Source: an uncultured Candidatus Saccharibacteria bacterium
Lineage (GTDB): Bacteria; Patescibacteriota; Saccharimonadia; Saccharimonadales; Saccharimonadaceae
DNA length: 64,000 nucleotides
NCBI GenBank assembly: GCA_947302355.1
Contig: CAMYUU010000002.1
Coordinates: forward strand, 1-64,000
Reading direction: 5' to 3'
The notes beneath the pieces were generated by a model that did not search any database, was not told the DNA's origin, and saw only the letters and a list, made by a program, of their open reading frames with translations. This document shows, piece after piece, positions 13,360-63,742 of the stretch (position 1 is its first letter; each line of letters begins with the position of its first letter). Position numbers and translations under genes: made by a program.

Positions 13360-13425
13360 AAGTAAATTATAGCATATATTGGAGGCGTGGTGGGATAAGA
13401 GTATGTAATTATTTGGACAAAAGAG

Positions 13426-13452
13426 TGCCCGGGCTTGCGCCCGAGCGGGGTG
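13426..13452 (-). terminator. Intrinsic terminator (copy 1 of repeated hairpin)
   Basis: gtgcccgggcttgcgcccgagcgggg; minus strand gives GC hairpin followed by CTCTTTT. Confidence 0.6.
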
Positions 13453-13798: not shown

Positions 13799-13917
13799 AA
13801 GAATCTCCTTTCAAATGTGCTATCCGAAGGATACGTTAACCTCGTATAGGCTGGTTTGTATAATACTACGAATTGTGTTTATTGTCAAGAATCACGGACT
13901 AGTTTTCTGAAAAGAAG

Positions 13918-13945
13918 AGTGCCCGGGCTTGCGCCCGAGCGGGGG
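13918..13945 (-). terminator. Intrinsic terminator (copy 2 of repeated hairpin)
   Basis: agtgcccgggcttgcgcccgagcggggg, near identical to 13426..13452. Confidence 0.6.
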
Positions 13946-19422: not shown

Positions 19423-21147
19423 ATGAAAAATAAAAAGTGTAAATATATATTTGTAACTGGTGGCGTGCTGTCTGGGGTAGGTAAGGGAATCACGGCAGCT
19501 AGCATGGGAGCGATTCTGAAGGCAAAGGGTTATAAAGTAACCATGCAAAAATGCGACCCGTATCTAAATGTAGATGCGGGTCTTTTAAATCCGGTGGAGC
19601 ATGGTGAGTGCTATGTGACGCATGATGGGGTTGAAACGGATCTTGATCTTGGGCACTATGAAAGGTTTTTGGATTTTGAAACTAATAAATATTCAATCAC
19701 GTTGTCAGGTTCAATTTATAAGGAGTTGATTGAAAGAGAGCGCGCTGGAGGATTTCATGGCAAGACTGTGCAGCTAGTGCCGCATTTTACGAATTTGGTT
19801 TGCGAAAAAATTGAAAAAGCTTCGGCGGAGAGTGATATTCATATAGTAGAAATCGGTGGTACGGTGGGGGACTATGAGGGGTTACCGTTTATTGAGGCGA
19901 TTAGATTGTTTGCGAACAAAGTGGGTCGGCGAAATTGTCTGTATGTTTCGGTGGTATATGTACCATTCATTCATACGTCAAACGAATTGAAAACTAAGCC
20001 TGCGCAGAACGCGTTGAAGGATTTGCGTGGTTTTGGAATAATACCAGATATTGTATGCGTAAGGACAGAAGAGCCGTGTCCTAGGGCGATTTGCGAAAAA
20101 ATAGCAGCGTTTTCGGGGATTGAATCGGAAGCAGTGCTTAATTTGCCGGATATTAAATCGGTATATGATGTACCATTCAACGTGTTGAAGTCCGGAGTAC
20201 TAGAAATATTAAATGATTTTGTGGGTGATGAAGTGGAGCCGGACATGTCGCGCTGGAAAGAATTTTCTAGGAGGAGGGGACGTGAATACGCGAAAACTGT
20301 ACGAATCGGGTTGGTAGCGAAATATGTAGGAAATGACGATACGTATATGTGCGTGACAGAAGCATTAAAAGCTGCGGCAGCGTGGAATAATGTCAATCTC
20401 GACCTCAAATGGATCAATGCAGAAGAGCTAGGTCAGGCGTTAGCGAATGCCCCTTCGGGGCACGTTCCAGGCCACTCTGGCCAAGTCTTTATGTCCTCAC
20501 AGGAGTATTCGCCAACGCTTGACCTACTTCGGTCATGTGATGGCATTGTGGTGCCGGGAGGGTTTGGTAAGAGGGGGACGGAGGGGAAGATAATGGCGGC
20601 GGAGTATGCACTAGAAAACGATGTCCCGTACCTTGGTTTGTGTTTGGGGCTACAGGTGGCTTGTATTGCAGCGGCGCGCAAAGGCGGCGTAAAAGATGCC
20701 AATTCAGAAGAGTTTGGTGCTAGCGAAAAAAAGAAAAATAATGTTATTTATATTATGGAGGACCAAAAAGGTAAAGAATCTACTGGTGGCACAATGAGGT
20801 TGGGCAACTATACGGCGCGCTTAGTGCCAAAATCAAAAACCGAGAAGATTTATAAAAAATATAATTATGGGGAAGAAAAAGATGGTTATGAGGTAATAGA
20901 AAGACATCGTCATCGTTATGAAGTTAATCAGAAATTCTTGCCGGAAATAGAGAAGGCGGGAGTATTGGCTTCTGGCTTTTCGCCAGACGGCAAGTTGGTG
21001 GAATTTGTGGAAGCGCCGAAGTGTAAGTTCTTTGTAGCGACTCAGGCGCATCCGGAGTTTAAATCTCGCCCGCTTAACGTGCATCCGTTATTTATGGAAT
21101 TCATGAAGACTGCAAAACAATCTTTGCCGAAAGATGAATCGAGATAA
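19423..21147 (+). CDS. pyrG: CTP synthase with an in-frame insertion element
   Basis: KYIFVTGGVLSGVGKGITAASMGAILKAKGYKV; VPGGFGKRGTEGKI; GLCLGLQVACIA. ORF track extends to 19399; ATG at 19423 preferred. Confidence 0.95.
   Translation: MKNKKCKYIFVTGGVLSGVGKGITAASMGAILKAKGYKVTMQKCDPYLNVDAGLLNPVEHGECYVTHDGVETDLDLGHYERFLDFETNKYSITLSGSIYKELIERERAGGFHGKTVQLVPHFTNLVCEKIEKASAESDIHIVEIGGTVGDYEGLPFIEAIRLFANKVGRRNCLYVSVVYVPFIHTSNELKTKPAQNALKDLRGFGIIPDIVCVRTEEPCPRAICEKIAAFSGIESEAVLNLPDIKSVYDVPFNVLKSGVLEILNDFVGDEVEPDMSRWKEFSRRRGREYAKTVRIGLVAKYVGNDDTYMCVTEALKAAAAWNNVNLDLKWINAEELGQALANAPSGHVPGHSGQVFMSSQEYSPTLDLLRSCDGIVVPGGFGKRGTEGKIMAAEYALENDVPYLGLCLGLQVACIAAARKGGVKDANSEEFGASEKKKNNVIYIMEDQKGKESTGGTMRLGNYTARLVPKSKTEKIYKKYNYGEEKDGYEVIERHRHRYEVNQKFLPEIEKAGVLASGFSPDGKLVEFVEAPKCKFFVATQAHPEFKSRPLNVHPLFMEFMKTAKQSLPKDESR
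20429..20526 (+). repeat. Palindromic insertion element copy 1 (in-frame in pyrG)
   Basis: Arms TAGGTCAGGCGTTAGCGAAT / ATTCGCCAACGCTTGACCTA (inverted, 18/20) flanking core ...GGGGCACGTTCCAGGCCACTCTGGCCAAGTCTTTATGTCC... Confidence 0.75.
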
Positions 21148-51116: not shown

Positions 51117-51887
51117 TTAGATTACATGGTCGAATAAACAAGCAATGGTTAGCGGGCCGACGCCGCCGGTGGGGGGCGTGATGGCGGCGAGGTCGGTGCG
51201 GGCGCGGACGTCGCTGGAAAGGTCGCCTTTTAGGACGCCGTTTTCGCTGGCTGTGCCGGCATCTACAACTACGGCACCAGGCTTAATCATTGAGCTATTG
51301 ATTAAGCCTGCTACGCCGGTAGCCGTAATAATAATATCGTATTGGTTGAGCATTGTAAGGTTGGAACCACGGTGGAATAAATTTACATTAAGCCCAGAAT
51401 CACTAAACATTTTAAATAATGGAGCGCCTACGAGTTTTCCGCGACCAACGATGGCGATTTTCTGATTTTTTAATTCGATATTATAGCCGGTGAGAAGCCA
51501 GTTAATAGCAGTGGCGGTGGCTGAATCGTAATTGGCGTGTTCGCCTAGGCCATCTACGTCTTTTTCAGGTGCGATTAGATTACAAAGTTCATCGGTGCGT
51601 TCTTTTTCCTGAATTGGAAGCTGAATGATAATACCAGAAACTGATGGATCGCTACTAGCACGAATGATTTCTTCTTGGAGGGCGTCAGAATTTTGTGCAC
51701 GATAGTCAATCACTTCTACGCCGATATCTTCGCCGTATTTAATTTTAAGATTGACATATTTAAGAATGACAGGGTTATCACTATCGCGAAGAATGAGAAG
51801 TTTAGGTTTTTTAGCCATTTTGCGGATTTGCTGGGCTTGACGTTCTTTGATGAAGCCGGCCAGTTCGCGACCATCTAAGATCTTCAT
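51117..51887 (-). CDS. folD: Bifunctional methylene-THF dehydrogenase/cyclohydrolase
   Basis: SGIIIQLPIQEKERTDELCNLIAPEKDVDGLGEHA, IVGRGKLVGAPLFKMF, ITPPTGGVGPLTIACL. Confidence 0.93.
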   Translation of the reverse strand: MKILDGRELAGFIKERQAQQIRKMAKKPKLLILRDSDNPVILKYVNLKIKYGEDIGVEVIDYRAQNSDALQEEIIRASSDPSVSGIIIQLPIQEKERTDELCNLIAPEKDVDGLGEHANYDSATATAINWLLTGYNIELKNQKIAIVGRGKLVGAPLFKMFSDSGLNVNLFHRGSNLTMLNQYDIIITATGVAGLINSSMIKPGAVVVDAGTASENGVLKGDLSSDVRARTDLAAITPPTGGVGPLTIACLFDHVI

Positions 51888-53008
51888 TGGATCTCCATAG
51901 GTTCTTGTTCGAGCCAATAACCAAATTTGTCGTAGACTTTGCCAACTATTTCACTACGAGCGGCTTTTAGATCATTATAACCTTTGGCGGATTCATTGAT
52001 GAGAACTAGTGGGGCTTTGTCGCTAACGCGCATCCCATGTAAGAGCGCGCCTTTAAGACCAGCTTGTTCGATTAGCCAACCGGAATTGATTTTGTTGCCA
52101 TCTTTGCCGTGATAAACTGGGTAACCTTTGGATTCGGCTAGCTTGGCATCGGCATCGTTTAGGTAGATATTTTTAAAGAATGATCCGGAACTAGCTTGGC
52201 TTAAAGGGTCTGGCAATTTGCTGTCACGGATATCGCTTACGATTTGACGGATGCTCTGAGGACTGTAATCGGTAATATTGTTGGCTGATATGTATTGCTC
52301 GATAGAATTATAAAATGGGCGAGACATTTCGCCAGATCTAAGATGGAGGGTGAGAGAGATAACGAAATAGCGATTTTTGTCGGTAGTATTTAGAATGCTT
52401 TTGCGATAGGAAAAATGAAGATCGGATTTTGAGAGGGTTTTATAAGTATGGTCAGTGGTGTCGTAAACTTCGATTTCGACTAATGTATCTGCGATTTCTT
52501 GGCCGTAGGCTCCGATGTTTTGGACTGGAGCTGCGCCAGCTAGGCCAGGTATTTTGCTCAAAGCTTCAATCCCAGTGAGGTTTCTTTTGCAGGCGTAGTC
52601 GACGACATCGTCCCAGTATTCGCCACCCATCACTTTAATATAAATCGTGGAACGACTAGGCACCTCTTTTTCGGACACACTTGAGGCCGTTCGGCCAAGC
52701 TTATGGTCCTCAAAAGAGGTACCTGAGTCGCTCTGTGACTCATATTTAGATTTAAGGATGTCTGTCGGTGTCTGGGTAATCTCGATGCCTTTCATGCGGT
52801 TAATGATGATGACGCCGTTAAATCCTTCATCGTGACCGATGGTGTTGGCGCCGTAGCCAAGTACGAAAGTAGGCAAATGGGCTTGTTCGGCAAAGCTATA
52901 AGCATCAGCAACTTCGTCGTGGTTTTCAACTTCAATTACGTAGCGTGCTGGACCGCCAAGTCGCATGGTGGTGAGACTGGAAATTAAGATATTTTCATTA
53001 ATCCTCAT
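51884..53008 (-). CDS. murB: UDP-N-acetylmuramate dehydrogenase with an in-frame insertion element
   Basis: NILISSLTTMRLGGPARYVIEV, LGYGANTIGHDEGFNGVIIINRMKG, GIEALSKIPGLAGAAPVQNIGAYGQEI. Confidence 0.95.
   Translation of the reverse strand: MRINENILISSLTTMRLGGPARYVIEVENHDEVADAYSFAEQAHLPTFVLGYGANTIGHDEGFNGVIIINRMKGIEITQTPTDILKSKYESQSDSGTSFEDHKLGRTASSVSEKEVPSRSTIYIKVMGGEYWDDVVDYACKRNLTGIEALSKIPGLAGAAPVQNIGAYGQEIADTLVEIEVYDTTDHTYKTLSKSDLHFSYRKSILNTTDKNRYFVISLTLHLRSGEMSRPFYNSIEQYISANNITDYSPQSIRQIVSDIRDSKLPDPLSQASSGSFFKNIYLNDADAKLAESKGYPVYHGKDGNKINSGWLIEQAGLKGALLHGMRVSDKAPLVLINESAKGYNDLKAARSEIVGKVYDKFGYWLEQEPMEIQ
52650..52733. repeat. Palindromic insertion element copy 3 (in-frame in murB)
   Basis: Arms GAACGACTAGGCACCTCTTTT / AAAAGAGGTACCTGAGTCGCTC inverted; core TCGGACACACTTGAGGCCGTTCGGCCAAGCTTATGGTCC. 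Confidence 0.75.
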
Positions 53009-55129: not shown

Positions 55130-55462
55130 TTATTTGACTGGTTTAGAGATATTGGCGCCATGTCCATATTCGGGAATAATGATGGGGTGTTTTTTACCAT
55201 GATGATCGTAGAGCGGAATGCTTAGCTCGGAGGCTAGAGTATTAACTATGGCTGCGCCAATACGAAGGCCAGTGAATGATCCAGGGCCAGACATGAAGGT
55301 GATTTCGGTGATATCTTTAAAATCTTTGTTGTTTTCTTGTAATTTATCGTGAATGAATTTAAGTAATTTTTCGGCTAAATCGCGATCAAAATTATAACGA
55401 TATTCGTGATCGTCGAGTTTTAGAATAGTTTCGGGGGAACTGGTATCTAGATATAATTTCAC
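55130..55462 (-). CDS. tsaB: Minimal TsaB-like protein (110 aa)
   Basis: LYLDTSSPETILKL, ITFMSGPGSFTGLRIGAAIVNTLASEL. Confidence 0.8.
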   Translation of the reverse strand: MKLYLDTSSPETILKLDDHEYRYNFDRDLAEKLLKFIHDKLQENNKDFKDITEITFMSGPGSFTGLRIGAAIVNTLASELSIPLYDHHGKKHPIIIPEYGHGANISKPVK

Positions 55463-55484
55463 GTAGACAATTATACTCTAAAAT

Positions 55485-55589
55485 ATGTAATAAGAAAATA
55501 TTTTAAACGTGCCCTTCGGACACGCTCCAAGGCCGCTCTGGCCAGTCTTTATGTCCCGCAGAGCAGATTAAAATATATTCTTATTACAT
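55485..55589. repeat. Palindromic insertion element copy 2 (intergenic, overlapping tsaE stop)
   Basis: Arms ATGTAATAAGAAAATATTTTAA / TTAAAATATATTCTTATTACAT inverted (1 mismatch); core CGGACACGCTCCAAGGCCGCTCTGGCCAGTCTTTATGTCC. Confidence 0.8.
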
Positions 55590-56012
55590 AGATAGATTTG
55601 TTTCTATCTCGCGGGTGCCATCGTCATTATAAGAAATTGATATCTTGAAGTGATTTTCAGGAAGAAGATTAGCGACGGATTCGCCCCACTCGATTACGAT
55701 GATATTTTTTGGGTTTTTAAGATTTTCTTCTAAATCTTCGATCATGAGACCTGGTTCAGGGAGTCGGTAAAAGTCGTAGTGTGTGAAAGTTCCGCCATTT
55801 GGTAAAGCATATGATTTAGCAATGGTGAAACTGGGGCTAGTGATGGGTTTTTCAATTTGCAAGCCGTTCGCTAAACCACGCGTGAAAGTGGTTTTGCCGA
55901 CGCCGACATCACCAATCAATTCGATTACCGTAGCGGAATCTTTGGATAATTGGCATTTTTTTGCAAATTCTTTGCCGAAGTCTAGCATTTCTTGTTCGGA
56001 ATTTATTTTCAT
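55584..56012 (-). CDS. tsaE: tRNA threonylcarbamoyladenosine biosynthesis ATPase TsaE
   Basis: ELIGDVGVGKTTFTRGLANGLQIEKPITSPSFTIAKSY, HYDFYRL. Confidence 0.93.
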   Translation of the reverse strand: MKINSEQEMLDFGKEFAKKCQLSKDSATVIELIGDVGVGKTTFTRGLANGLQIEKPITSPSFTIAKSYALPNGGTFTHYDFYRLPEPGLMIEDLEENLKNPKNIIVIEWGESVANLLPENHFKISISYNDDGTREIETNLSM

Positions 56013-57326: not shown

Positions 57327-60300
57327 ATGGTGAATTTAAAAGTATTTAGATTATTGCGCAAAAAAACTTTGTTACGATTATCTGTCTTTAGTTTGGCGAT
57401 TGTGATGTTTTGTTGCTTGATTGGGAATATGTTTTTACAGCAAGGGCAAAATGTTTTTGCTGATGATGTTCCTAAATGGGCTAGAATTTGGTATAGCGAA
57501 GACTCTGATGACAAGGCATGGTTTTATAATAGCTATGGGAACTGGGACTACACCCATCTTTATTATGTTTGCTTTAGCCAAAATAGAAACGATACGAGCT
57601 GTACTTCTAATTATACGCTAGCTTTTTGTTCTCAGCCAAATTCATTAATTCCGGCCAATATCGAGTATAGTCCTGATACTTGGTACAGCACAGAGACATA
57701 TAGTCATAATAAGGTGAAATTGTTGTTGTATATCTATTACTATCGTGGTAGTGTAACTGCGGCGGGCCAGGCAAAGAAGGAGATATTTGATGATGGGGGT
57801 TGGGATGTCAGCAACTGGAAGAAGTTGTATGGCTATGTACATGCGGCGCTCGGATATCTATACGATGGTGGGGCAGGTGGCTTAGAGGACGGATATATGG
57901 ATAATGCGTCTTGGCTTGACGATTTTAGGAGAATTTCTAATATGCTCGGAAATTATATTAATAACAATGCTACGGTTTGGCAGCAAGCGAAAACTTTTAC
58001 TTTGTATAGGACGAAAGGAGGGGATGATTATCAGGATATTATGTGGATTGAGCCGGGGGATGTGACTTTGACTGGCGTAGCAGTGGATACTGATGGAAAT
58101 AGGATTTCTGGGCTTAGTAATGTTACTTCTACTGTAGAGTTTAATAGCTCAGCGTCGATTACTGCGGGCTCCAAGGCTGGTTGGACATTTAAGGGATGGC
58201 GGACGAGTGCTGAGAGTGGTACACCTTCTGGTAGTTCGAGTTATACCGTGAGTCATTTAACTGCCAATACTACTGTTTATGCGGTGTATGAATATAAGGC
58301 TTTTCAAGCAAAGGCTGAAGTTTCTGATGCTTCGACCGGATATGTAGTTGAAAATAGTACATCTAAAACTATGACTTGCACTGATACTGGAGATGGTTGT
58401 TCGGTCAGTTTTTCCTTTTATCTAAAAAGGGTAGCTGGTTCGGATGGCGATGGTACTAAATATAGTACGGATAGAGTAGGTACATCTGGTTCTTGGGCTG
58501 ATAAAGATACTGATAAGTCAGTGACCCCATCTAGTAGTGGTGATAAAGTAGTGACATATAATGAAAAGATAAAAGCCGGTCAGAGGATATGCTATAGAAT
58601 GGTTTATTATCCACACGGAAGTTACGGTGCAGATACGACGAAGACGGTTTCGGCTTGTGCTTATGCGGTAGGGACTTTTGAGTCGAGCATAAAGATTGAG
58701 GCGAAAAAGAATAATGATCCATATCGGATAACTGACATTTATGCAAAACCTACTGATAAGATTTATTTGAAAGGAACGTATACACCGACGGCACAATATG
58801 GATCCGATTTAAAGCCGGCTATTGTGAGTGTGGGGAATAGTAGTAACAAGGAAAGCTCGAAGGTGGTTAAAGCTAGGTTTAATACATTGATGGGCACTAA
58901 TCCGGGGTGGAAAAATGCTTTTTCCGTAACTTTCAATAGGAGTGGATTTAGTACGCGTAATATTACTGGAACTGATGGCAGTGTAGCTGCGTATGCATCT
59001 GGTGATGATGTTTATTCTACAATAGGATATAGTGATCCGGGTAGCACTTTTACGGCCAAGGCAAAAACCAATGTTAATAATAACACAAAAACCACTCCTA
59101 AAAAAACTGAAATTACTTACAATAGTACAAATGGATTTGTCGTGACAATTAATAATGGATCGATTGAAGCTGCGCTTCAGGTGATGGTGCCATATAACTT
59201 TACGAATTCTACGGAAGTGACGTTTGATCAAGATTTGCCTTTGTATGCTGGGGAGGATATGTCTATTTCTTATGATATTACGACAGGGGTAAGAGACAAT
59301 CCGACGGTCGGTGGTAGTTACGCTACGATTGCGAAAGACGCAAAATGGAAAATACAGATGAGTGTGAATAATGGTCCTTGGCAAGATTTTGGATTGGTAG
59401 AAAATCAAATACTGAATGAAAATGATGCCGAGCTAGACGGTTCTACTAGACATGCTAGTTCTACGGTTGAGATACCCGATGTCAAGGCTGGTACTATGGT
59501 ATGTTTCCGTTCGGCTGTATACCCAGCTTCAAGTGGTGGAGATACTAATATTGACAAAGGTGGCGATAAGGAATGGGCTTACTCTGATTCGAAGTGTTAC
59601 ACCGTAGCCAAAAGACCATCTCTTCAGGTCTGGGGTGGTAACATTTACTCCAATGGCGCAATCACAACTAGCGTAGCAGTAAAGAAAAGGTTGGCTGGCG
59701 AAAGTGACGGTACACATGTCTTTGGCTCATGGGGTGAGTTAGGTATCATTGCGAACGGACAAGTAAAGGGCCTAGCTAGCGGAGCTGGCTATGCTTATAA
59801 TACTGGGGCCAATAATACTGGATTTTGCTTCGTGAGTACATTGTCATTTGCTAACGATAAATGTAATAGTGAAACAACTGGCTCACTAGGAGTTTCATTT
59901 GGAGTACTAGATGATGAAAAGAAATTGATAATAGAAAAGCTAACTAACGCTGAAGACGTTACAAAATATAGTAGCACTGACGAACTTGAAGAAAGAATAG
60001 GTGGAGATTCCGGAATAATACTGGTTGAAAATGATGAAACAGTTAACATAACGAAGCCTATAATATACGACGATACTTATACTAGTTTTGAGTCAATGCC
60101 TAAAGTTGTAATATACGCTAAGAACGTTAATATTAATTGCAATGTAACCCAGATAGATGCCTTAATAATCGCAGAAGATGCAGTAAACACTTGTAGCAAT
60201 ATTTCGGATGTAAATGATCAAGGAAGATCTGTGCAATTGAAAGTTAATGGTGCCATTGTAGCTGATAAACTAATCGCTGGACGTACTTATGGTGCGGGTA

Positions 60301-60440
60301 CTGGCACAAATTCTGGTATCCCAGCTGAGATTATTAACTTTGATCCTTCACTTTATTTGTGGGGCGGAAGTTCGGCGGATGCCAATACTAGTTCTTCTTA
60401 TGAGAATGTATATTCTCGTGAGCTATCGCCTAGATATTGA
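57327..60440 (+). CDS. Large surface protein (InlB-type repeat plus conserved C-terminal domain)
   Basis: Signal peptide; FKGWRTSAESGTPSGSSSYTVSHLTANTTVYAVYE; C-terminal VWGGNIYSNGAITTS... domain. Confidence 0.8.
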   Translation: MVNLKVFRLLRKKTLLRLSVFSLAIVMFCCLIGNMFLQQGQNVFADDVPKWARIWYSEDSDDKAWFYNSYGNWDYTHLYYVCFSQNRNDTSCTSNYTLAFCSQPNSLIPANIEYSPDTWYSTETYSHNKVKLLLYIYYYRGSVTAAGQAKKEIFDDGGWDVSNWKKLYGYVHAALGYLYDGGAGGLEDGYMDNASWLDDFRRISNMLGNYINNNATVWQQAKTFTLYRTKGGDDYQDIMWIEPGDVTLTGVAVDTDGNRISGLSNVTSTVEFNSSASITAGSKAGWTFKGWRTSAESGTPSGSSSYTVSHLTANTTVYAVYEYKAFQAKAEVSDASTGYVVENSTSKTMTCTDTGDGCSVSFSFYLKRVAGSDGDGTKYSTDRVGTSGSWADKDTDKSVTPSSSGDKVVTYNEKIKAGQRICYRMVYYPHGSYGADTTKTVSACAYAVGTFESSIKIEAKKNNDPYRITDIYAKPTDKIYLKGTYTPTAQYGSDLKPAIVSVGNSSNKESSKVVKARFNTLMGTNPGWKNAFSVTFNRSGFSTRNITGTDGSVAAYASGDDVYSTIGYSDPGSTFTAKAKTNVNNNTKTTPKKTEITYNSTNGFVVTINNGSIEAALQVMVPYNFTNSTEVTFDQDLPLYAGEDMSISYDITTGVRDNPTVGGSYATIAKDAKWKIQMSVNNGPWQDFGLVENQILNENDAELDGSTRHASSTVEIPDVKAGTMVCFRSAVYPASSGGDTNIDKGGDKEWAYSDSKCYTVAKRPSLQVWGGNIYSNGAITTSVAVKKRLAGESDGTHVFGSWGELGIIANGQVKGLASGAGYAYNTGANNTGFCFVSTLSFANDKCNSETTGSLGVSFGVLDDEKKLIIEKLTNAEDVTKYSSTDELEERIGGDSGIILVENDETVNITKPIIYDDTYTSFESMPKVVIYAKNVNINCNVTQIDALIIAEDAVNTCSNISDVNDQGRSVQLKVNGAIVADKLIAGRTYGAGTGTNSGIPAEIINFDPSLYLWGGSSADANTSSSYENVYSRELSPRY
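59475..60365 (+). repeat. 891-bp block duplicated at 62777..63667 (copy A)
   Basis: Visually identical apart from one base near the 5' edge; constant 3302-bp offset. Confidence 0.95.
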
Positions 60441-60503
60441 TTTATCCAATTTAATTCTGAGAAAAAGTTGGAAAAATGATGTTGGTTATGCTAATATAGA
60501 AGC

Positions 60504-61016
60504 ATGAGCAAAGGTAAGGTTATATTGGGCAACAGATGGCTGGTTGTTTGTTTTTGCGTTCTTGGTGGTTTGGCTATATTTTTAGCAGTAATAAACATTA
60601 CGATTTGGGTTACAAATTCAAATTATGACGATGGCGGTGAGTTGTCAGAAGAAGAGACTGTGGTAATTGATGATTCGTTTGATGATGGTGTTATTACTGA
60701 TGAAGATTTGCAAGCGTATATCGAAGAAACAAGTCGTAAAATATCGGAAGTTGTAATAGATGATGAAAAGGTAAATATATATAAGGAGAGAGTTGATTAT
60801 CTTGCTAGTAATAGTGAGTTTGGGGTGTTCGCTGACCAGATGATTGCGGATTGCATTGCAATAGACGATATTGAGCAAAGTGTGGATTCTGCAGCTCAGG
60901 TAGCTAATACGGCAAGTGTTTATGGAAAAGATGAAATTGCTGAAAAATATCTGCATATTATGAAACAGAGGATGAAAGATCAGGGTATAAACGAGGAGGT
61001 ACAAGGAATAGGATGA
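60504..61016 (+). CDS. Bitopic membrane protein between the two surface paralogues
   Basis: VVCFCVLGGLAIFLAVINITIWV helix; overlaps next start by 4 nt. Confidence 0.6.
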   Translation: MSKGKVILGNRWLVVCFCVLGGLAIFLAVINITIWVTNSNYDDGGELSEEETVVIDDSFDDGVITDEDLQAYIEETSRKISEVVIDDEKVNIYKERVDYLASNSEFGVFADQMIADCIAIDDIEQSVDSAAQVANTASVYGKDEIAEKYLHIMKQRMKDQGINEEVQGIG

Positions 61017-63742
61017 AAAAGTGGTGTTTGCTAGTTATATTAATAGTAGGATTCTTAGGGGTCTGCATGTCAGCTCCGAGAGTATCAGCAAGTCAATTTA
61101 ATAGTAAGGAGGAGTGTTTAAACGCTAGTGGTGGCAGGCGTGATATCAGTTCGGTAGATTGGGCTTGCGACTGGGTTGGTACTGCTACGGAAACAGTGTG
61201 TGCCTTATGGATTGGCTCCGCTACGAATACTGTTGATCCTATTATTTATACTGATAAAACTTCTGGTAAGGTGACAATAAGATATTATAGAATGTGTTAT
61301 GATGGGACGCTTGGTACGGCGCATATATGGGTAGAAAATGATAATGGCGCGATAGATGATAGCATGAATATGAATGGAGGGACTTGGAATAATCCTAAAC
61401 ATATTGATACCCAGCTTGATGTAGGTAAGTTTATTAGTGGTATTAGTAGTACCGAAGTGACACACGACGGCAAAGTGTATAATGAATATTCCCGCTGGGT
61501 AAAGGTGGGAAGGCAGAGTGAGACTGCATCTAGCTGTGACGCTTACTCGGGGGCTTGTTCAGAGATGAATGAGCTAGTGCGAGTGCGGATATTAAAAAAA
61601 TCATTTCAGGCGAAAGCGGATGTATCTGATTCTTCAACTGGATACGTAGTTAATGGAAGTACATCTAAAACCGTGACTTGCAATAATGCGATGGACGGTT
61701 GCTCGGTTGGTTTTTCTTTTTATATAAAAAAGATTTCTGGGTCGAGCAGCGATGATACTACTTATGGTACGGAAAAAATAGGTCCGTCTGGTTCTTGGAC
61801 TGGTGTTGAATCGAATAAATCATCTACCGCTTCTAGTGGTGGTACGGAAGTGGCGACGTACAGTGCGACAATAAAGGCTGGTCAGAGGATATGCTATAGA
61901 ATGAACTATCATCCGCACGGAAGTTACGGTGAAAATACGACGAAGACAGTTACGGCTTGCGCCTATGCGGTGGGGGAGTTTAGCTCGAGTATAGATATAA
62001 AAGCAAAAAAACAAAGTAGCAGAAATTATTCTGATAATATGATATATGCAAGGCCTGACGATAAAATTGATTTGCAGGGAACGTATGCGCCGAGGGCTCA
62101 ATATGCAGCTAGTTTGCGCCCGAAAATTGTTGAAGTAAATGGGACTACGAATAGTAGCTCTGGTACTGTGCAATCTAGGTTCAACAGCATAGTGGGTTCA
62201 AATGGATGGAAAAATACTTTTTCGATTAGATTGGACAGGGGCTCTACTGGGTTACTTGTTCAACATAAAGGTGGCACTATTGGCGCTATTGATACCTATA
62301 AATTCATAGCAGGTTATAGCATTAACGCTAAACAGGATCCTGGAAATGCATTAAAGGCTAAAGCGCTTACAAACAATGATGATAGCCATAAGACTGCTCC
62401 TAAAAAATCTACTATTTCTTATGATAAAACGACTGGATTTAAGGTGACGGTTGACCCGAATAGAATTAGTGATGAACTACAAATAGTGGTACCTTATAAT
62501 TTTATTAATTCTACGAAGGTGACTCTTGATGATAATGTGTCTTTATATGCTGGAGAGGCTATGTCCATTTCTTATGATATTGAGACGAGGACGAGGAAGA
62601 ACAATAAGATTGGAAGTACTTACGCTACGATTGTGAGGGGGGCGCAGTGGGAATTACAGATGAGCGCAGATGGTGGTAAGACATGGGAGAAATACGGAAA
62701 GAAGACTAATCAGGTTTTGAATAAAAATGGGAAAATTGATGGTGATTCTATTTCGCTTAAGTCTACTGCTATAGTTCCCGATGTCAAGGCTGGTACTATG
62801 GTATGTTTCCGTTCGGCTGTATATCCAGCTTCAAGTGGTGGAGATACTAATATTGACAAAGGTGGCGATAAGGAATGGGCTTACTCTGATTCGAAGTGTT
62901 ACACCGTAGCCAAAAGACCATCTCTTCAGGTCTGGGGTGGTAACATTTACTCCAATGGCGCAATCACAACTAGCGTAGCAGTAAAGAAAAGGTTGGCTGG
63001 CGAAAGTGACGGTACACATGTCTTTGGCTCATGGGGTGAGTTAGGTATCATTGCGAACGGACAAGTAAAGGGCCTAGCTAGCGGAGCTGGCTATGCTTAT
63101 AATACTGGGGCCAATAATACTGGATTTTGCTTCGTGAGTACATTGTCATTTGCTAACGATAAATGTAATAGTGAAACAACTGGCTCACTAGGAGTTTCAT
63201 TTGGAGTACTAGATGATGAAAAGAAATTGATAATAGAAAAGCTAACTAACGCTGAAGACGTTACAAAATATAGTAGCACTGACGAACTTGAAGAAAGAAT
63301 AGGTGGAGATTCCGGAATAATACTGGTTGAAAATGATGAAACAGTTAACATAACGAAGCCTATAATATACGACGATACTTATACTAGTTTTGAGTCAATG
63401 CCTAAAGTTGTAATATACGCTAAGAACGTTAATATTAATTGCAATGTAACCCAGATAGATGCCTTAATAATCGCAGAAGATGCAGTAAACACTTGTAGCA
63501 ATATTTCGGATGTAAATGATCAAGGAAGATCTGTGCAATTGAAAGTTAATGGTGCCATTGTAGCTGATAAACTAATCGCTGGACGTACTTATGGTGCGGG
63601 TACTGGCACAAATTCTGGTATCCCAGCTGAGATTATTAACTTTGATCCTTCACTTTATTTGTGGGGCAATGATGCAATAAAAACTGATCCTAATTCATCT
63701 TTGGTAAATGTATACCTACGTGAGCTATCGCCTAGATATTAG
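61013..63742 (+). CDS. Large surface protein, paralogue of 57327..60440
   Basis: Shared FQAKADVSDSSTGYVV... segment and identical about 300-aa C-terminal domain. Confidence 0.8.
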   Translation: MKKWCLLVILIVGFLGVCMSAPRVSASQFNSKEECLNASGGRRDISSVDWACDWVGTATETVCALWIGSATNTVDPIIYTDKTSGKVTIRYYRMCYDGTLGTAHIWVENDNGAIDDSMNMNGGTWNNPKHIDTQLDVGKFISGISSTEVTHDGKVYNEYSRWVKVGRQSETASSCDAYSGACSEMNELVRVRILKKSFQAKADVSDSSTGYVVNGSTSKTVTCNNAMDGCSVGFSFYIKKISGSSSDDTTYGTEKIGPSGSWTGVESNKSSTASSGGTEVATYSATIKAGQRICYRMNYHPHGSYGENTTKTVTACAYAVGEFSSSIDIKAKKQSSRNYSDNMIYARPDDKIDLQGTYAPRAQYAASLRPKIVEVNGTTNSSSGTVQSRFNSIVGSNGWKNTFSIRLDRGSTGLLVQHKGGTIGAIDTYKFIAGYSINAKQDPGNALKAKALTNNDDSHKTAPKKSTISYDKTTGFKVTVDPNRISDELQIVVPYNFINSTKVTLDDNVSLYAGEAMSISYDIETRTRKNNKIGSTYATIVRGAQWELQMSADGGKTWEKYGKKTNQVLNKNGKIDGDSISLKSTAIVPDVKAGTMVCFRSAVYPASSGGDTNIDKGGDKEWAYSDSKCYTVAKRPSLQVWGGNIYSNGAITTSVAVKKRLAGESDGTHVFGSWGELGIIANGQVKGLASGAGYAYNTGANNTGFCFVSTLSFANDKCNSETTGSLGVSFGVLDDEKKLIIEKLTNAEDVTKYSSTDELEERIGGDSGIILVENDETVNITKPIIYDDTYTSFESMPKVVIYAKNVNINCNVTQIDALIIAEDAVNTCSNISDVNDQGRSVQLKVNGAIVADKLIAGRTYGAGTGTNSGIPAEIINFDPSLYLWGNDAIKTDPNSSLVNVYLRELSPRY
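62777..63667 (+). repeat. 891-bp block duplicated from/with 59475..60365 (copy B)
   Basis: See copy A. Confidence 0.95.

Follow-up and report, generated by a model that had tools for sequence, protein, structure and literature searches.

The inverted repeats of a mobile element are normally the element's own and are recognised by its transposase, and we know of no described mobile element with inverted repeats that are copied from the target. Among described systems, the Rickettsia palindromic elements (RPE) are about 100-150 bp long, lie in frame in conserved protein genes of reduced, host-dependent genomes, and are mobilised by no enzyme known to date (PMC2229807, PMC10969869). When replication switches template between inverted repeats, it is reported to homogenise the arms and to invert the spacer between them (PMC8604942), and one template-switch event can produce perfect stems (PMC8794818).

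We examined a hairpin at the 3' end of tsaE, at 55485-55589 of the window (the whole stretch of 64,000 nucleotides that was analysed), in a 727-kb genome, denoted G000, of Candidatus Saccharibacteria, which are minute parasitic bacteria; other G-numbers are likewise genomes and L-numbers are individual loci. We consider it probable that this hairpin is one of a family of palindromic elements, short, mobile and restricted to the genus, the arms of which are not the element's own and are copied from the host by template switching.

The hairpin between tsaE and tsaB and its family

The hairpin consists of a core of ~60 nt (55507-55567, plus strand, ACGTGCCCTTCGGACACGCTCCAAGGCCGCTCTGGCCAGTCTTTATGTCCCGCAGAGCAGA), assigned by alignment and covariation to a repeat family of the genome and to core class A, which is flanked by arms of 22 nt. 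The left arm (55485-55506, ATGTAATAAGAAAATATTTTAA) pairs at 21 of 22 positions with the right arm (55568-55589, TTAAAATATATTCTTATTACAT), and an outer T-A pair extends the arms to 23. On the minus strand, which codes for tsaE and tsaB, the hairpin is predicted to fold at -46.2 kcal/mol (z = -8.0), and 0 of 200 shuffles folded equally well. The hairpin is real, its arms being inverted copies with 1 mismatch in 22 as the earlier note had claimed. An Rfam scan of the window returned tRNAs only, with no family scoring above its gathering threshold for this hairpin.

The right arm carries the terminal codon and stop of tsaE (55584-55589), also as described previously. The tsaE ORF (55584-56012, minus strand; the name is that of the earlier note and is consistent with the sequence) ends with an altered C-terminal tail, REIETNLSM*, and the tsaB-like ORF (55130-55462, minus strand) has a GTG start. 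In the nearest relatives, G039 (82%), G010 (78%), G009, G067, G106 and G124, tsaE and tsaB abut or overlap without spacer or arms, and TsaE, as read from the junction sequences, terminates ...REI-x-T*. Comparison with these junctions defines a segment gained in G000 relative to its sister species (55463-55598), which comprises both arms, the core, the last tsaE codons and, upstream of tsaB, a stretch with a TATAAT box on the minus strand; a short inverted copy, AGATAGA...TCTATCT, likewise lies within this segment. The earlier claim that tsaE supplied one of the arms at this locus finds no support in the junctions of the relatives, from which both arms are missing. Since both arms and the last tsaE codons are gained compared with the relatives, the tsaE tail within the right arm was probably acquired with the gain and is not ancestral host sequence; an earlier spacer at this junction in the G000 lineage may still be conceivable. 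A blastn search found no second place of useful length for these arms in this genome. The tsaB-tsaE junction of G056, G152, G157, G076 and G077 holds other, larger fold-back insertions (L085, L086, L092, L093, L107), which reach ~250 nt, have nested hairpins and in some cases contain GCTCCTCGTTAGTCGCG.

The core matches 15 distinct places in the 727-kb genome by blastn, and a covariance model built from 16 copies detects about 25 copies (E ≤ 7e-4). Three of the copies are in the window, at tsaE-tsaB, in pyrG and in murB. The pyrG copy (20439-20518, plus strand) is in frame within the gene, with a left arm made of host codons (ELGQALAN) and a right arm that is the inverted copy; the tsaE-tsaB core had been described as matching this copy almost base for base, which overstates the 87% identity over about 45 nt found by blastn. 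The murB copy (52654-52730, plus strand), a variant class with a class B core and an addition to the earlier note, is in frame within murB (51884-53008, minus strand), which reads it antisense to the core. The copies cluster weakly in space, with 6 neighbouring pairs within 3 kb compared to 2.3 expected (P = 0.016) and no significant clustering at 1 kb, and we dropped the reading of local spread on account of this weak signal.

Two other repeats in the window were noted. Two large paralogous genes in tandem (58302-63740) are separated by 3302 nt and share a 300-nt block that is 97% identical amid 72-74% identity, which suggests local gene conversion. A 45-nt repeat with a GCCCGGGCTTGCGCCCGAGC hairpin (13406-13450 and 13900-13944; 87% identical, 494 nt apart) sits near the ends of two small genes.

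By alignment, the cores fall into two main classes, class A with CCAGGCCGCTCTGGCCAAGTCTTTATG and class B with AAGGGCGCTCGCCCAAGCTTAYGGTCC, which share a GGAC/GTCC stem, an inner hairpin with GGCC or GGGC, and conserved letters in the internal loop; at the ends of class B cores, a TC/TC mismatch lies beside the GGAC/GTCC stem. Cores are 40-60 nt long and are closed by arms of 15-25 bp, with nested or larger cores in some copies (L043, L047, L085, L107). In a set of 107 copies drawn from 28 genomes, the mean identity between copies is 0.74 for the core, but 0.31, nearly chance level, for the distal arms. Each arm nevertheless matches its own partner: the arm score is 17.0 ± 2.9 with the true partner and 5.2 ± 1.9 with swapped partners, and the former exceeds the 99th percentile of swaps in 89% of the 107 copies. 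Similarly, an alignment of 16 copies has changes on both sides in 15 of the 16 arm pairs, and 76.6% of arm cells are paired, compared to 57.6% in shuffled and at most 46.6% in slid arms. In one intergenic subfamily, the loci share their long arms (AATGTCATTAACTTAAGCAT...GCCCAACAACAAAGTACTT), and a bulge is present on one side only; it is represented in G044 (L183, L185, L189, L194, L206, L213-L215, L219, L223), G000 (L026), G048, G023 and G054.

Empty and filled sites

Filled and empty sites were compared between species, mostly about 75-85% identical, and only one of the sites is base-precise. This site is the 3' end of a gene that we call rarA-like from a reading of its C-terminal sequence, with G004 (L203) as the filled and G087 (L240) as the empty genome. 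In G087, ...ATTATATC is joined directly to ACTGTTTGAATATTTTTGTTCCCTTG...; in G004, a stretch of 77 nt, made up of ATAGGGAACAAAAATATTTAAGC and the core, has entered at this junction. The right arm in G004, AATATTTTTGT(T/C)CCC, is already present in G087, and the left arm, GGGAACAAAAATATT, is new. What G004 has gained is therefore exactly the core and a single arm, which copies, in inverted form, host DNA that was already there. At this single site, no target duplication was seen.

In tsaD of G000, G046 and G051, the right arm includes the conserved FPLLA codons, which empty relatives also have; in each of the three genomes, the left arm is the mirror image of the synonymous codons used by that species. 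The pyrG copy has as its left arm the loop that aligns with the ortholog (ELGQALAN versus DVGKPATN in G010), and its right arm repeats 20 nt of this loop in inverted form (18/20). leuS and a second tsaD site read alike, with one host arm and one inverted copy, although less surely. The inverted copy is placed to either side of the core, with both directions seen. The idea in the earlier note that insertion generates an inverted copy of the target is thus borne out at the rarA-like 3' end, tsaD and pyrG, but not at the tsaE-tsaB junction, and the finding that was to count against it, namely that both arms are older than the core, is excluded at the same three sites.

A core that simply entered the loop of a pre-existing host hairpin would also be flanked by matching arms, both of them older than the core, and two loci point in this direction. 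Upstream of a pnp-like gene, elements of differing class and orientation (L020 in G000, L187 in G020, L195 in G039) occupy the apical loop of a conserved host hairpin, which empty G051 (L238) has as well; at leuS, the flank codons GACTTT/AAAGTC are already inverted in empty G009. However, the inner arms of the pnp elements are missing from the empty relative, and the empty orthologs at the rarA-like 3' end, tsaD and pyrG show one arm and have no room for two. The G004/G087 site refutes a pre-existing hairpin as a general rule, and we consider this explanation very unlikely, although it may apply to a minority of sites. The G020 copy in the pnp leader has no arm with a match in the empty relative. 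Since the arms here and at the tsaE-tsaB junction are unmatched in empty relatives, some arms derive from elsewhere or from an unseen ancestor.

Copies within genes and changes after insertion

Among the 107 copies, 47 are within ORFs, in frame and without a stop, 56 are intergenic, and 4 are doubtful genic copies that may be gene junctions. The host genes include ileS, leuS, lysS, tsaD, pyrG, murB, gatA, tgt, ychF, ligA, topA, uvrB, priA, exonuclease I and tlyA, with tsaD of this genome hit twice (gene names in G000 are based on sequence and orthologs). On inspection, five of the six frames of the class A core are stop-free, but two of six frames account for 40 of the 47 genic copies, some of which are mutually orthologous and so not all independent. 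These two favoured frames encode hydrophilic Ala/Ser/Arg-rich peptides, such as CPSDTLRAALAKS. The bias toward two frames and the stop-free reading argue that the insert in genes is translated and filtered at the level of protein. An intron, an intervening sequence, splicing or translational bypass was rejected on the frame and stop constraint and the frame bias, because neither splicing nor bypass would need a frame bias.

The translated inserts fall in particular protein loops. Residues 338-366 of PyrG are a gap in the alignment to the solved CTP synthase 1vcm and have no counterpart in solved CTP synthases. The same loops have been struck repeatedly across species by insertions with differing arms and cores, as in leuS, tgt and ileS, and at one tsaD site at least ten different insertions are found, which provide a natural series for the tolerance of a protein to insertions of 20-35 residues at one loop. 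The same tsaD site in G067 has a coreless palindrome (L111), GGATAATCAAAATGGAG-AATC-CTCCATTTCTGATTATCC, which may be a relic or simply an inverted duplication. Most likely, the element is selfish in function, and copies in genes persist only where the protein loop is permissive and the reading frame benign.

The arms also change together after insertion. The orthologous copies L200 and L211 (G039 and G048) have the same core, and their arms differ by paired substitutions and by an indel on both sides. Upstream of a def-like gene, the core is reverse-complemented in G047 compared to G149 (L207, L244) between identical inner arms, AAGTACTTTTGGGA/TCCCAAAAGTACTT, and G147 (L245) has different arms at this place; the flip falls in ~200 nt of local divergence, the surrounding DNA being 95-100% identical. 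The matched arms across species and the flipped core, although few cases, fit the prediction from template switching. The close pair L171/L243 shows arm differences that are unpaired and uncorrected, so the arm-matching process is not constant. Copies also pass between species by recombination, since a tract of ~250 nt around the leuS copy is ~99% identical between G000 (L027) and G010 (L138), compared to ~83-88% in the remainder of the stretch that was compared.

Compensatory changes in orthologous copies, like the strong predicted fold (z = -8), are equally what one would look for if selection on RNA structure, for instance for RNase III processing or mRNA protection, paired the arms by compensatory substitution after insertion. 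Four observations make such selection quite improbable as the source of the pairing: copies inside many unrelated genes, whichever way they are oriented, pair as well as intergenic ones; the new arm is an exact mirror image of codons of the host; the symmetric multi-base indel of L200/L211 is hard to reach stepwise; and the arms of one close pair, L171/L243, have drifted without pairing. If the arms are instead matched by template switching, they carry a warning, as covariation, which is usually taken as a sign of selection on RNA structure, can arise from mutation alone.

Distribution, spread and comparison with described elements

The element is present in 41 of the 60 sampled genomes of the genus, with 0 to 26 copies in each. 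At the level of the class, 2 of the 129 genera sampled are positive, the second through a single genome within the same family. When 85,462 species representatives, from which records very close to this genome may be omitted, were searched for the exact class B core pattern, 77 stretches were obtained, all from Candidatus Saccharibacteria and mainly from ruminant gut assemblies and Ca. Nanosyncoccus alces. Viral carriage was rejected, as two core patterns had zero matches in viral contigs.

The Y1 transposase (PF01797) is found in 8 of 174 genomes of the genus and not in G000, while reverse transcriptase families are found in 10 of 15 tested genomes, but not in G000 or in several copy-rich genomes. 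We rejected both enzymes as movers because they are missing from G000 and from several copy-rich genomes; a reverse transcriptase may act in trans. RNA-templated insertion, which the earlier note had entertained, finds no positive support, G000 having no match to a reverse transcriptase family.

A transposase could in principle move a conventional MITE or REP-like unit in trans, in which case the arms would be degenerate terminal repeats. MITE/RPE-type insertion into ORFs is known (PMC10969869), and the shared long arms of the intergenic subfamily in G044, G048, G023, G054 and G000 fit ordinary hairpin transposition. Across the family, however, the arms are not conserved between copies, target duplication is lacking at the base-precise empty site, and the transposase family searched, Y1, is as rare in the genus as described above; we find a conventional unit distinctly unlikely.

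In the view that we favour, the inverted host copy would arise while DNA is replicated or repaired. At the target, the end of a strand would acquire the core from another copy, fold back on the core hairpin, copy about 20 nt of the neighbouring host strand and then rejoin its template; subsequent template switches from one arm to the other would keep them matched and invert the core. The same product, host-core-inverted host, would be obtained if a hairpin adaptor capped both strands of a broken end and a nick about 20 nt inward were followed by fill-in, and the TC/TC mismatch next to the GGAC/GTCC stem of class B is awkward for priming from a 3' end. No known bacterial enzyme with such a capping activity was found, though, and we regard capping as unlikely. 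The shared-arm subfamily (G044 and others) and the pnp-leader copies misfit the simple form of the fold-back model, and here hairpins may have moved whole or been put into existing hairpins.

Target-borrowed inverted repeats point, in a testable way, to movement by replication template switching, and each copy would record which strand was copied and how far. It seems to us an evenly balanced question whether the family amounts to a new class of mobile element, one that carries only a core, builds its terminal inverted repeats by copying host DNA backward, and spreads by means of the replication machinery of its host, without having its own transposase.

Our search of the literature, largely confined to open-access journal papers, found no description of palindromic elements in Saccharibacteria. 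The mitochondrial coding palindromes of Nematomorpha are likewise long inverted repeats inside protein genes, but both of their arms code for conserved protein, and the abstract describes no recurring core (PMC6649704). Like MITEs and REP/REPIN sequences, the elements are short, hairpin-forming, dispersed and multi-copy, without an enzyme of their own. They differ from MITEs in having no conserved terminal inverted repeats, with the shared-arm subfamily as the exception, and no target site duplication at G004/G087, a single site; they differ from REP sequences and IS200-IS605 derivatives in that G000 has no Y1 (RAYT-type) transposase.

Closest, together with RPE, are template-switch, or quasipalindrome, mutations, in which, as in the elements, adjacent DNA is copied in inverted form, arms are homogenised and the spacer is inverted (PMC8604942, PMC8794818). 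The defining feature of such mutations, one arm that is an inverted copy of older adjacent DNA, is found at the rarA-like 3' end, tsaD and pyrG, but not at the tsaE-tsaB junction. Template switching is, however, a general mutation process, whereas here one specific mobile spacer recurs.

In working, the elements resemble RPE. Both are stop-free palindromes in frame in protein genes (47 of 107 copies here), both yield a conserved translated peptide (here from two frames in 40 of the 47 genic copies), and both occur in reduced, host-dependent genomes, RPE having also been reported in Wolbachia. The 12 bp terminal inverted repeat of RPE is described as belonging to the element, whereas the arms in Saccharibacteria vary from copy to copy and copy host DNA, and the class B core is found only in Saccharibacteria (by the exact-pattern scan, RPE sequences themselves not being compared). 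With arms that do not belong to the element and a core that is limited to Saccharibacteria, the elements work like RPE without being members of that family, and represent a second, unrelated case of selfish palindromes translated in essential genes of a reduced, host-dependent genome.
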